NCBI GenBank assembly: GCA_026390795.1
Contig: JAPLFG010000003.1
Coordinates: 744,001 to 808,000, forward strand
From: Ignavibacteriales bacterium
GTDB lineage: Bacteria > Bacteroidota > Ignavibacteria > Ignavibacteriales > Melioribacteraceae
Length of the DNA: 64,000 nt
Reading direction: 5' to 3'
Every line of letters starts with the position of its first letter. Within the stretch, counting starts at the first letter, position 1. The notes under the pieces were generated by a model that saw only the letters and a list, made by a program, of their open reading frames with translations, made no database searches and was not told where the DNA came from. Below are positions 39,938 to 46,204 of this stretch, one piece after another. A program made the position numbers and the translations under genes.

Positions 39938-40069
39938 AGAGCAAAATTTTTTTTGAATTATTGAATGTGGAAAGAATTCAGTTCTTCAAAAGAACAGAAT
40001 ACCGCTTTCTTTAATTTCGTTATTCTTCAACATAATATTATTTTTGAACCAACCTATCTAGGAGAATTT

Positions 40070-42259
40070 ATGCTACGAAGTAGTTGGCTATCCAAATTTT
40101 TAAAACTATTTACAATTACTTTTTCACTTACATTTATTTTGGGGATGATCCCGGCCTCTCCTGAAGAAGGAATGTATCCCTTGAGCGAAATTGATAAAAT
40201 TGATTTACAAAAGGCCGGTTTAAAAATTGAAACGAAAGAAGTTTATAATCCAGACGGAGTTAGCCTTGTTGATGCGCTCGTGCAGCTAAGCGGATGTACC
40301 GGATCATTTATTTCTGAAAATGGATTGATCATTACAAATCATCATTGTGCATTCGGCGCAATCACACGCGCAAGTACGGTAGAAAAAAATTATCTTGAAA
40401 ACGGTTTCTACGCTAAAACTCCATCCGAAGAGATCCCTTCGCAAGGCTATATTTGCAAGATCACCGAATCATATCTAGATGTTTCCGACGCAATTCTTGG
40501 TGCTATCAAAAATATTTCCGATCCCGTAGAACGGACTAAAATGATAGCGCAAAAGAGCAAAGAACTTTCAGATGCAGCTACAGATGAAAAGGAATCTATC
40601 ATAGCAGATGTGTCGGAAATGTTTGCCGGAAAAACTTATGTGTTATTTAAGTACCGCATAATTCGTGATGTACGGCTTGTGTTTGCCCCGCCTCAATCAA
40701 TTGGTAATTTTGGCGGTGAAACAGATAATTGGATTTGGCCGCGCCACACCGGCGATTTTTCAATCATGCGTGCCTATGTTGCACCAGATGGCAAAGCAGC
40801 AACATACTCTAAAGAGAATGTTCCGTTCAAACCAAGAAAGTTTTTAAAGATCAACCCAAATGGAGTTGAAGCGGGAGATTTTGTTTTTCAGCTCGGTTAT
40901 CCGGGAAGAACTTTCCGCCACCGCCCATCGCAGTATATGAAATATCAGCTTGATTATTTACTGCCTTACATTTCAGACCTATACCAGTATGCAATTGAAA
41001 CAATGCAGGAAATCAGTGCGGACAACAAAGAACTAACACTTGCTTTTGCAAGTCGAATTAAAGGTTTAGCCAACACAATGAAAAATTATCAAGGAAAGAT
41101 TAAAGGACTGAAAAAGATAAATCTCATTGCACAGAAACAGGAAGAAGAAAAACAGCTTCAGCAATTCATCAATTCCGATTCGAAACTAAAAACAAAATAC
41201 GGCAATTTGATGGAAGAAATTCATAATGTATTTGAATTAGTAAATCAAAACGCAAAAGCGGATTTGTGGCTGCGGCAAATCAATTCTTTTTCAACAACGC
41301 TTTCCTTGGCAAACTTTGTTCTTACTTATTCGGAAGAAATACGGAAACCGGATATGGAAAGAAATCCAGCATATCAAGAAAATAATATTAATCAGACTTT
41401 AAGCAGAATAGAATATTTAAAACAGAATTACAATACCGACTTTGAAGAAGCAATGCTTAATAGAATGTTAATGGATGCAAACAACTTCAAGGAATCATCA
41501 CGTATAGCGGCTGTTGATGAATTATTGGAAGGGAATGGAATTCATCCGGAAGAAACTTTTCAAGATTTTATTTCCAATTACATAACAAATTCAAAGATCC
41601 GTGAGAATGAATTTTTTGATTCACTTTTAAAAAAATCACCGGCAGAAATTGCGGCAATGCAGGACCCGCTCTTTATTTTTGCAAAGAAAATAAAAATGCA
41701 GTCTCAAGCCAGCGACAAAGAGAGTCAAAAAAACGAGGGAAAACTTAACAAACTTTACGGCGATCTAGTTGATGTAAAAATGGAATGGAAAAAAACCAAC
41801 TTTATTCCAGATGCAAATAGTACACTACGGCTTACGTACGGATACATTAAAGGGTACAATCCGGCTGATGCAATTTATATGGAACCGTTCACTTCAATTG
41901 AGGGTGTAATTGAAAAAAATGCGTCGGGTGATCAAGAGTTTGTAATTCCAGATAAACTCCGCGCTGCATATGCTAAAAAAGATTTCGGAAAATATGTCAG
42001 CAAGAAAACGGGTAAACTTCCGGTGGGAATGCTTTACAATATGGATACCACAGGCGGCAATTCCGGCAGCCCGGTCCTTGATGCTTATGGGAATTTAATA
42101 GGCGTTAACTTTGACCGTGCTTTTGAAGCCACAATAAATGACTTTGCCTGGAATGAATCTTACAGCCGTTCGATTGGCGTTGATATACGTTACGTTTTAT
42201 GGGTGATGGATAAAATCGGCGGTGCAGATAATTTATTGAAAGAGATTGGAGTAAATTAA
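40070..42259 (+). CDS. S46-family dipeptidyl-peptidase (DPP7/DPP11 type)
   Basis: About 729 residues from the ATG at 40070, which has a TAGGAGAA ribosome-binding site and starts a signal peptide; a longer upstream frame is unlikely. It removes dipeptides from peptide N-termini in the periplasm. The triad is visible: His in ITNHHCAFGA (about residue 90), Asp in GETDNWIWPRHTGDF (about 217) and Ser in TTGGNSGSPVLDA (about 665). NFDRAFEA near 682 carries Arg where DPP11 has its P1-acidic specificity residue, suggesting Asp/Glu preference. Found mainly in Bacteroidota. Confidence 0.92.
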   Translation: MLRSSWLSKFLKLFTITFSLTFILGMIPASPEEGMYPLSEIDKIDLQKAGLKIETKEVYNPDGVSLVDALVQLSGCTGSFISENGLIITNHHCAFGAITRASTVEKNYLENGFYAKTPSEEIPSQGYICKITESYLDVSDAILGAIKNISDPVERTKMIAQKSKELSDAATDEKESIIADVSEMFAGKTYVLFKYRIIRDVRLVFAPPQSIGNFGGETDNWIWPRHTGDFSIMRAYVAPDGKAATYSKENVPFKPRKFLKINPNGVEAGDFVFQLGYPGRTFRHRPSQYMKYQLDYLLPYISDLYQYAIETMQEISADNKELTLAFASRIKGLANTMKNYQGKIKGLKKINLIAQKQEEEKQLQQFINSDSKLKTKYGNLMEEIHNVFELVNQNAKADLWLRQINSFSTTLSLANFVLTYSEEIRKPDMERNPAYQENNINQTLSRIEYLKQNYNTDFEEAMLNRMLMDANNFKESSRIAAVDELLEGNGIHPEETFQDFISNYITNSKIRENEFFDSLLKKSPAEIAAMQDPLFIFAKKIKMQSQASDKESQKNEGKLNKLYGDLVDVKMEWKKTNFIPDANSTLRLTYGYIKGYNPADAIYMEPFTSIEGVIEKNASGDQEFVIPDKLRAAYAKKDFGKYVSKKTGKLPVGMLYNMDTTGGNSGSPVLDAYGNLIGVNFDRAFEATINDFAWNESYSRSIGVDIRYVLWVMDKIGGADNLLKEIGVN

Positions 42260-43633: not shown

Positions 43634-44980
43634 TCATCCTGTTGCAACTTTAGCATAATTTGTTTCATTAGTATAATTCTCCAGTTGATTTTCTAAATAC
43701 ATCTCATACGAACCTAAATCTAAAAATCCATTACCTGAAAGATTAAACAGAATTGTTTTCATCTCACCTGTTTCATTGCACCGCAGCGCTTGAACGATTG
43801 CCTCTTTGATTGCATGAGAACTTTCCGGAGCAGGAACAATCCCTTCAGCTTGGGCAAATAATTGTGCCGCTTGAAAAACTTCCATTTGGTCGTAGGCTCT
43901 TGCATTGATCACGCCAATATTATAAAGTAAAGAAACAGAGGGTGCCGCACCATGATACCGCAATCCTCCGGCATGAATTTTTGGTGGTATAAAATTATGA
44001 CCTAGAGTGTACATTTTCATTAATGGCGTCATTCCGGCTTCATCTCCAAAATCATATTCATATTTGCCTTCTGTTAGTGATGGACATGATGAAGGTTCAA
44101 CGGAAATTACTTGCAGATTTTTTTTTGCGCCGGAAAGTTTATCACGTAAGAATGGAAATGCAATGCCCGCAAAATTACTTCCACCCCCAAGGCAGCCAAT
44201 TACAATATCGGGATAAACATCAGCCATCTCCATTTGGATGCGCGCCTCTTCTCCAATAATGGTCTGATGCAGTAAAACATGATTCAACACGCTTCCTAAA
44301 CTATAATTTGTATCTTCACGTTGTACGGCAACTTCAATCGCCTCGCTTATTGCTATCCCAAGCGATCCAGGAGAGTCAGGGTCGCTGTTAAGGACATTTC
44401 TTCCCGCATTAGTTAGATTTGAAGGACTTGCATGCACTTCAGCACCAAACAACTTCATAAAAGTCTTGCGGTACGGCTTCTGATCGAAGCTTACCTTCAC
44501 CATAAATACTTCACACTCCATATCGAAATGTTTACAAGCCATTGCTAGTGCACTTCCCCACTGACCCGCCCCGGTTTCTGTTACAAGTTTTTTTATTCCA
44601 GCTTGTTTGTTGTAGTACGCCTGTGCATATGAAGTATTAGTTTTATGACTTCCTGTTGGGTTTGCGCCCTCATACTTAAAATAAATTTTAGCAGGAGTAT
44701 CCAAAACTTTTTCAAGATTGCTTGCACGGATTAAAGGTGTTGGTCTACTTAATTTATAAAGATCTCTTACTTCATCCGGAATTTCTATAAAGCGTTCTTG
44801 AGAAACTTCCTGCTTGATCAATTCCATTGGAAATATTGCTGATAAATCTTGCGGACCTATCGGTTGCTTTGTACCGGGATGAAGCGGCGGGTCCATCGGA
44901 ATAGGAAAATCAGCTAAGATATTATAGTAGTGAGTGGGCATTTGAGACTGATCGAGAAAAATAATTTTGTTGCTTGACAT
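43634..44980 (-). CDS. trpB: Tryptophan synthase beta chain, TrpB2 type
   Basis: A 448-residue PLP enzyme that joins indole and serine to make tryptophan. The Schiff-base Lys is in [14 protein letters not shown] near residue 113, with [18 protein letters not shown] and [10 protein letters not shown] (phosphate-binding). The long N-terminus and [11 protein letters not shown] segment mark the TrpB2 subgroup, which often lacks an adjacent trpA; none is here. AGGAGG sits 5 nt before the ATG. Upstream is a Trp-codon leader and attenuator, strong support for tryptophan synthesis as its real role. Confidence 0.93.
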
Positions 44981-45005
44981 GTGAACCTCCTGTTATATAT
45001 AAAAT

Positions 45006-45035
45006 AAAAAAGCCGCTGAATGGAAGTTCACGGCT
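45006..45035 (-). terminator. Attenuator terminator T2
   Basis: On the minus strand AGCCG/CGGCT and TGAA/TTCA form a 9-bp stem with one bulged G and a 6-nt loop, followed by TTTTTT. It lies 25 nt upstream of the trpB ATG. Confidence 0.85.
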
Positions 45036-45041
45036 GGATAC

Positions 45042-45075
45042 AAAAAAGCCGTGAACGGTCTACCATCCACGGCTT
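45042..45075 (-). terminator. Attenuator terminator T1
   Basis: On the minus strand a 13-bp stem forms between arms at 45075-45063 and 45058-45046, closing on the tetraloop TAGA, with two GT wobbles. It is followed by the rest of a six-T run. It is the stronger of two tandem terminators. Confidence 0.85.
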
Positions 45076-45098
45076 GTTGTTAAAGTTTATTTAAAGCA

Positions 45099-45167
45099 TT
45101 AGGATAGCAGAGAAATATTTCTCCACCACCACCAATTTAAAGTTGTTATGTTTTTTTCGTTAGTCAT
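45099..45167 (-). CDS. trpL: trp operon leader peptide
   Basis: A 22-codon ORF: MTNEKNITTLN, then four consecutive TGG Trp codons (residues 12-15; bases 45134-45123), then RNISLLS and TAA. The stop directly abuts attenuator segment A. The run of Trp codons ahead of tandem terminators and trpB is the hallmark of ribosome-mediated attenuation. It starts only 8 nt after the promoter -7 box, so the mRNA has almost no 5' leader and no ribosome-binding site. Confidence 0.9.
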   Translation of the reverse strand: MTNEKNITTLNWWWWRNISLLS

Positions 45168-45175
45168 CTTGGCTG

Positions 45176-45207
45176 CAAATGTATAACAGAAATCCGGCTT
45201 TGTCAAT
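45176..45207 (-). promoter_or_regulatory. Promoter for trpL-trpB
   Basis: On the minus strand ATTG (45207-45204, within TTGACA), a 20-nt spacer, and TACATTTG (45183-45176), an exact match to TAnnTTTG. Transcription should start within a few bases of the leader ATG. Confidence 0.7.
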
Positions 45208-45355: not shown

Positions 45356-46066
45356 ATGGGAAGAATTTTTGAAACAAGAAAGCATGTGATGTTTGCACGT
45401 TACGCAAGAATGTCTAAGGCTTTTAATAGAGTTAGAAAAGAGATTGAGATTGCTGTAAAAGCAGGCGGACCTGATCAAAAATCAAATTCTAAATTAAGAA
45501 TAGCCATGCAGAACGCGAAAAGCGTTAACATGCCTAAAGATAAAGTAGAAGCCGCAATTAAAAGAGCTTCTTCGAAAGATACCTCCGGTTATGTAGAAAT
45601 TATTTATGAAGGATACGGTCCTAACGGAATTGGTGTCGTGGTCGAATGCGCAACCGATAACCCGACAAGAACGGTCGCGAACGTCCGCCATATCTTCAAA
45701 AAATATGAAGGCTCTTTAGGCACTACAGGTTCAATTGCTTTCATGTTCGAAAGAAAAGGATTATTCAAAGCTACAAAAACTGCAGAAATGGACTTAGATA
45801 ATTTAGAATTAGATTTGATCGACTCTGGACTTGATGAATTTTCAAATGACGATGAGTTCATTTATATTTATGCGCCGTTTCAAGAATATGGATCAATGCA
45901 AAAAGCACTTGAAGAAAGAAATATTGAGATCAAGGCCACAGAACTTCAGTATCTGCCGGTCAATTACAAAGAGTTAAACGAAGAGCAAAAAAAGGAAGTT
46001 CAAGAATTGATTGAAGCTCTTGAAGAAGATGATGACGTTCAATCGGTCTATCACAACATGCAGTAA
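45356..46066 (+). CDS. YebC/PmpR-family protein, Bacteroidota type
   Basis: A 236-residue protein of the YebC family. Members help ribosomes through difficult proline stretches or act as transcriptional regulators. The opening MGRIFETRKHVMFARYARMS is the Bacteroidota-type variant. The core is KLRIAMQNAKSVNMPKDKVE, followed by GYGPNGIGVVVECATDN and GSLGTTGSIAFMFERKG. A TAAATTTG element lies at 45302-45309. A bidirectional terminator follows. Confidence 0.93.
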   Translation: MGRIFETRKHVMFARYARMSKAFNRVRKEIEIAVKAGGPDQKSNSKLRIAMQNAKSVNMPKDKVEAAIKRASSKDTSGYVEIIYEGYGPNGIGVVVECATDNPTRTVANVRHIFKKYEGSLGTTGSIAFMFERKGLFKATKTAEMDLDNLELDLIDSGLDEFSNDDEFIYIYAPFQEYGSMQKALEERNIEIKATELQYLPVNYKELNEEQKKEVQELIEALEEDDDVQSVYHNMQ

Positions 46067-46130: not shown

Positions 46131-46132
46131 TG

Positions 46133-46204
46133 TGAGCACGGGTGGGCTCGAACCACCGACCTTCACCTTAAAAGGGTGTTGCTCTACCACTGAGCTACGC
46201 GCCC
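46133..46204 (-). tRNA. tRNA-Lys (UUU)
   Basis: The cloverleaf folds by eye. The acceptor GGGCGCG pairs with CGTGCTC (two GT wobbles). The D-arm is GCTC/GAGC. The anticodon stem is CACC/GGTG with loop CTTTTAA (anticodon TTT). The T-arm GGTGG/CCACC has loop TTCGAAC. The discriminator is A; CCA is not encoded. Confidence 0.93.

Follow-up and report, generated by a model that had tools for sequence, protein, structure and literature searches.

The window analysed here, 64,000 nucleotides of contig JAPLFG010000003.1 from an Ignavibacteriales bacterium (assembly GCA_026390795.1), carries on its minus strand an apparently monocistronic trpB2 gene (43634..44980) encoding 448 amino acids, which stands alone between the divergent yebC on its upstream side and, downstream, a convergent gene of the DUF3788 family. 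The encoded protein was assigned to TrpB2 on the basis of profile matches to TIGR01415, the TrpB-like PLP enzyme family (670.7 bits against a cut-off of 518.85), and to NF009057 (731.6 bits); among its relatives K113, E135 and the TGAGQ motif are invariant, and the GSHKTN and TETGAGQ motifs are invariant or nearly so. The yebC/pmpR gene (TACO1 family), divergent from the attenuated trpB2, occupies 45356-46066, and a minus-strand tRNA-Lys (TTT) gene at 46132-46204 lies between it and a gene for an NtrC-type regulator. The window also contains a Peptidase S46 gene (Dpp7-type dipeptidyl-peptidase) at 39965-42259, and a peptide scavenger of this kind would fit an amino-acid auxotrophy.

The minus-strand region from 45206 to 44981 comprises a promoter, a leader peptide, two tandem terminators and the Shine-Dalgarno (SD) sequence of trpB2. 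The promoter (45176..45206, TTGACA-17-TACATTTG) is of the Bacteroidota -33/-7 type, as had been proposed, and the start position of this promoter class would leave a leader 5′ UTR of only a few nucleotides. Since the final G of the promoter is 8 nt 5′ of the leader ATG, the leader transcript is probably nearly leaderless. The leader ORF (45099..45167) specifies the 22-codon peptide MTNEKNITTLNWWWWRNISLLS and includes four UGG Trp codons (TGGTGGTGGTGG, 45123..45134), designated segment 1. Segment A (segment 2; CTGCTATCC, 45102..45110) abuts the leader stop and forms a 9-bp pairing with segment B (segment 3; GGATGGTAG, 45060..45068), which is located inside the left arm of the first terminator, T1 (45046..45075; 13 bp, loop of 4, U tract to 45042). 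The T1 right arm contains T1R (GTTCACGGCT, 45056-45047), a 10-bp perfect complement of T2L (AGCCGTGAAC, 45026..45035), the left arm of the second terminator hairpin, T2 (45011..45035), which is followed by Us at 45010-45006. The original prediction had named the four-Trp leader, both intrinsic terminators, the A:B pairing and a second perfect 10-bp pairing (there between segments "2" and "3", here T1R:T2L), and all of these were recovered at the positions given.

We compared trpB2 upstream regions from 26 genomes that belong to the same genus, family or order and include the window species; their TrpB2 proteins are 67-100% identical. In 26/26 of these genomes trpB2 is preceded by a Trp-run leader ORF and then by T1, a count that allows a GTG start and a Q within the run. 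The run reads WWWW, WWW, WRWWW, WVWWW, WAWWW, WWQW or WRQW, and is the sole conserved part of a peptide that is otherwise variable. In an automatic test, an ATG-led ORF with at least three Trp residues in five codons was found in 23/26 real regions compared to 10/52000 Markov resamples, and across all leaders there were no stops in the leader frame over 605 codons, while the other two frames held 66 and 46. The Trp leader upstream of trpB2 is not due to chance. The promoter is likewise a recurrent part of the arrangement: a TTG-17-TAnnTTT(G) motif 4-8 nt 5′ of the leader ATG was found in 17/26 genomes using a strict pattern, and most of the others have weaker look-alikes, judged by eye. At four trpB2 genes of the same order or family with at most 64% identity (L028-L031), this arrangement was missing. 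In one relative (L133, genome G219), an in-frame TAA separates the promoter-proximal GTG from the WWW run; its T1 and anti-SD pairings are kept.

The A:B pairing showed the pattern expected of a conserved helix, and the comparison of related genomes proposed originally found it retained, with compensatory changes, alongside the Trp codons in the 26 genomes. At least seven A:B positions show several Watson-Crick types, and the mean duplex energy was -16.2 kcal/mol for a segment with its own partner compared to -11.6 kcal/mol for partners swapped between genomes. In a permutation test 0/20000 permutations reached the observed total, with p-values that ignore shared ancestry; because shared ancestry is outside the permutation model, we regard this result as strong support and not as an exact probability. 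The consensus fold of the alignment additionally paired the Trp codons with A, forming a protector helix (columns 8-18/25-35), and recovered T1 with compensatory changes. Since A:B, the pairing of the Trp codons with A, and T1 are all supported, the three mutually exclusive helices of the classic attenuator (1:2, 2:3 and 3:4) are all present. In the window species GCTT:AAGC pairs prolong A:B into the T1 base. T1R:T2L was kept in every genome that has a T2 left arm, although T2 itself is not universal: it is absent from L009 and L011-L013, and its right arm is missing in L010, L135 and L136. The protector helix, the extension of A:B, the restricted distribution of T2 and the pairing of T2L with the SD described below were not part of the original prediction. 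Finally, A begins 5-13 nt past the last Trp codon in the 26 genomes and ends at the leader stop, or at most 6 nt before it, in 24 of them (in L026 and L027 it lies just past the stop). In these 24 genomes, this spacing fits exposure of A by a stalled ribosome and its cover by a terminating one.

When the nascent RNA was folded as far as B and the ribosome was placed on the first Trp codon, A:B formed in 26/26 genomes, and with the ribosome at the leader stop T1 formed in most of the 26 folds. In this nascent setting the originally proposed contrast between A free and A covered was borne out, whereas equilibrium folds of the full-length RNA showed no switch: T1 or T1R:T2L beat A:B in most of the stalled cases, and in the replete state T1R:T2L out-competed T1 in a few relatives. 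We consequently do not take equilibrium folds as a demonstration of switching, as A:B appeared only in truncated folds. Because the full transcript favours T1 or T1R:T2L at equilibrium even with A free, the modelled decision must be co-transcriptional and kinetic, as in the classic system. For nascent RNA free of ribosomes, the folds sequestered A in the window species and the majority of its close relatives, but left it unsequestered in most of the more distant group.

The element shows every computable feature of a classic ribosome-mediated trp attenuator, namely a Trp leader ORF, an intrinsic terminator, a covarying antiterminator, a protector helix and appropriate ribosome spacing. Ribosome-mediated Trp attenuation at trpB2 is thus very probable on sequence grounds, and we hold with high confidence that a transcription attenuator of this class controls the putatively indole-salvaging TrpB2. 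With ample Trp-tRNA, the ribosome would reach the leader stop and cover A, leaving B to pair with T1R, so that T1, backed by T2, would end transcription. A shortage of Trp-tRNA would instead stall the ribosome on UGGUGGUGGUGG and leave A free to pair with the emerging B, and T1 would not form. The free T1R could then pair with T2L, which would block T2 and at the same time take T2L off the trpB2 SD. The TrpB2 so produced would convert scavenged indole and serine (or phosphoserine) to Trp. We infer the ribosome stalling, the termination, the response to tryptophan and the source of indole from comparative observations: the sequence parts, their conservation and covariation, and the lack of detectable trpA, trpB1, trpC and trpD.

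The contact between T2L and the SD raises the possibility that a second, translational lock operates at this locus. The segment GTGAACTTCC (45022..45031), which overlaps T2L and lies within the T2 left arm and loop, and the trpB2 SD/spacer GGAGGTTCAC (44981..44990) form a 10-bp duplex with one G.U pair and an energy of -15.9 kcal/mol (0/300 shuffles). When A:B is held in the window species, T1R:T2L takes over and the T2L:SD pairing falls from about 8 to fewer than 1 expected pairs. That T2L can pair with T1, its own terminator arm or the SD suggests such a lock. According to this reading, T2L would switch between T1R (on), the terminator to which it belongs (transcription off) and the SD (translation off), stalling would govern an indole-salvage enzyme at both the transcriptional and the translational level in bacteria that no longer have de novo Trp synthesis, and in genus g35 the lock would have replaced T2; we put forward this full scheme tentatively, at somewhat below even odds. 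The competing explanation, to which we give about an even chance, is that T2L serves T2 alone and matches the SD simply because GTTCAC words are repeated, without any role in translation. It concerns the second lock only and is compatible with attenuation. The predicted energetics favour it: for the window species the gain in SD opening is just 0.8 kcal/mol, and L003, L004 and L007 have values near zero or negative, while it reaches up to 3.5 kcal/mol in L010 and L015. The comparative data argue against it: the SD complement is present in 12/12 close relatives that have T2L (p<=0.02 each), whereas the four genomes without T2L (L009 and L011-L013) have no SD duplex and carry GGTTAAA or GGTTATT in place of GGTTCAC. 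Furthermore, genus g35 (L010, L135 and L136) has lost the right arm of T2, yet T2L and the SD complement remain there, and L133 has a different 10-bp anti-SD pairing (ATAACCTCGT/ATGAGGTTAT). Since the predicted gain in SD opening is small in the window species, where the lock is energetically weak, we consider the translational lock plausible rather than established.

With regard to the attenuator itself, the element could in principle be a ligand-binding riboswitch or a T-box that senses free tryptophan or uncharged tRNA, the short ORF being incidental. Its two hairpins and antiterminator do recall the Rfam "trpB motif" RF04312, considered a riboswitch candidate by its authors (PMC11109978). 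However, the match of 29.1 bits is far under the gathering threshold of 59, which none of the 391 genomes of the class exceeds, and there was no T-box match. The Trp run is in frame in all 26 genomes while the remaining peptide and the loops diverge, and the consensus fold contains no conserved unpaired aptamer core, so that a sensor of this type is very improbable. Also very improbable is a constitutive insulator, in which T1 and T2 would just keep transcription from running into trpB2, with the G-rich run retained solely for its pairing with A: the UGG codons do form a helix with A, indicating an RNA-level constraint, and equilibrium folds do favour T1, but the promoter 4-8 nt 5′ of the leader ATG in most genomes means that the terminators interrupt trpB2's own transcript, the frame and stop are maintained even in the WRWWW, WVWWW and WWQW variants, and A:B covaries although it would be of no use to a plain terminator.

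No Rfam family matched the element at threshold, and RF00513 (Trp_leader) gave no match at E<=10. RF04312, which resembles it in having a hairpin, an antiterminator and a terminator and in occurring occasionally before trpB, was ruled out as its identity by score, phylum and gene context, since that motif comes from Firmicutes and Fusobacteria and mostly precedes an ABC transporter; its authors leave open that it is a classic attenuator (PMC11109978). A close parallel in design is the attenuator of the E. coli trp operon (trpL; RF00513), which likewise has a short leader with tandem Trp codons, the exclusive helices 1:2, 2:3 and 3:4, and an intrinsic terminator ahead of the gene. The two share no sequence relation, however, and the element described here controls a lone trpB2 rather than trpEDCBA, is nearly leaderless, and has a second tandem terminator with an arm that complements the SD. 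In B. subtilis, TRAP regulates the trp operon by transcription attenuation and by SD sequestration in the read-through RNA; this resembles a double lock, but its sensor is a Trp-binding protein and not a translating ribosome. A leaderless trpL is known in the alphaproteobacterium Sinorhizobium meliloti (trpL/rnTrpL), where the transcript starts at or near the trpL ATG and ribosomes stall at Trp codons; unlike the window element it controls trpE(G), and a trans-acting sRNA as well as a function of the peptide have been reported (PMC7298713). Among the predicted classic attenuators of Actinobacteria, outside the Proteobacteria, one lies 5′ of the trpB2A operon of C. diphtheriae (PMC1262725), and attenuation of a second trpB thus has a precedent. 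In that biosynthetic operon trpA follows trpB2, whereas in the window trpB2 is alone and trpA was not found in the genome.

A covariance model of the region from the leader to T1 gave matches at E<1e-8 in 26/391 genomes of the class; 25 of the 26 matches are directly 5′ of trpB2, and the remaining one (L126) is at a contig edge and has a Trp leader. The element is specific to trpB2. We did not accept weaker matches (E 5e-5 to 1e-2) as members, as the four that were inspected (L138-L141) were ordinary terminators at unrelated genes, and a phylum-wide Trp attenuation of trpB2 was also rejected, as no attenuator was present at the trpB2 genes that we inspected in the phylum beyond this class. Elsewhere in the class, Trp-run leaders followed by terminators occur with unrelated or weakly related sequence (L165, L166, L168, L174 and L178). 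Trp-run leaders and then terminators also lie 5′ of trpB2 in a Caldithrix sp. MAG of the Calditrichota (L064, NWRWWWC) and a Saprospiraceae MAG (L052, SWRWWLF); their leader sequences are unrelated to the window element and are possibly of independent origin.

The relatives with de novo Trp synthesis revealed a further attenuator. In 12/12 of those whose trpE region was read (11 of the 16 attenuator-bearing de novo genomes, and G002, which has no trpB2), trpE is preceded by its own unrelated Trp leader and a terminator. The upstream regions of these trpEGDC operons (L151-L162) have a terminator of the type CCCTTCTTAGT..CACTGAGAAGGGTTTTTT and a covarying antiterminator, for which own compared to swapped A:B partners gave 0/20000 permutations. 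Since the trpE leader and terminator are distinct from those of trpB2, the two genes appear to be separately attenuated, with the trpB2 attenuator persisting where the main operon is gone. No second Trp attenuator was detected in the window genome, where the other TGGTGGTGG sites have no ATG-led leader or are within long open frames.

That trpB2 is an orphan had been proposed from the window alone, and the genome makes the case stronger. In this assembly (5 contigs, estimated 100% complete), no trpB1 was detected, and profile searches gave no match over the cut-off for TrpA, TrpC or TrpD, for which the control genomes all score. The same state was found in 7/23 attenuator-bearing genomes checked (G000, G004, G022, G037, G039, G054 and G088), and trpA, trpC and trpD are present in the other 16. 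The loss of the trp genes is judged from these profile searches, and the window genome still encodes two PRAI (TrpF-like) paralogs (G000:C3:1421323-1421946 and C3:969124-969747), with similar ones in the other auxotrophs. A genome of the same genus in which trpA, trpC, trpD and trpB1 were also not detected contains only a C-terminal TrpB2 fragment corresponding to residues 393-448 (L163, G007:C7:688244-688414), apparently a gene remnant. Because trpA, trpC, trpD and trpB1 are not detectable, what the attenuator controls is probably indole salvage by a Trp auxotroph. TrpB2 can act in indole salvage (Hiyama et al. 2014, as cited in PMC12727527), and for this reason the simplest role for the enzyme would be to make Trp from scavenged indole when charged Trp-tRNA is low.

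Before Firmicutes were added, leader-peptide systems were placed only in Proteobacteria and Actinobacteria, according to a 2010 survey (PMC2965389). Our literature search found no papers on attenuation in Ignavibacteria. The older computational surveys of Lyubetsky (2007) and Lopatovskaya (2010) may already contain such predictions for lineages beyond Proteobacteria and Actinobacteria, and the lineage novelty of classic Trp attenuation is therefore not certain. With that proviso, what is new here is the lineage, the attenuation of a solitary salvage gene in auxotrophs, a tandem pair of terminators in which the T2 arm has three possible partners, and coexistence with a separate trpE attenuator. 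The locus adds a well-conserved example of classic Trp attenuation in Bacteroidota, and genomes that carry both this trpB2 leader and an unrelated one at trpE offer a natural comparison for studying the origin and loss of attenuators. Finally, the finding of trpB2 under apparent Trp-starvation control in genomes without detectable trpA, trpB1, trpC and trpD makes indole salvage its likely physiological role, a proposal that is directly testable.
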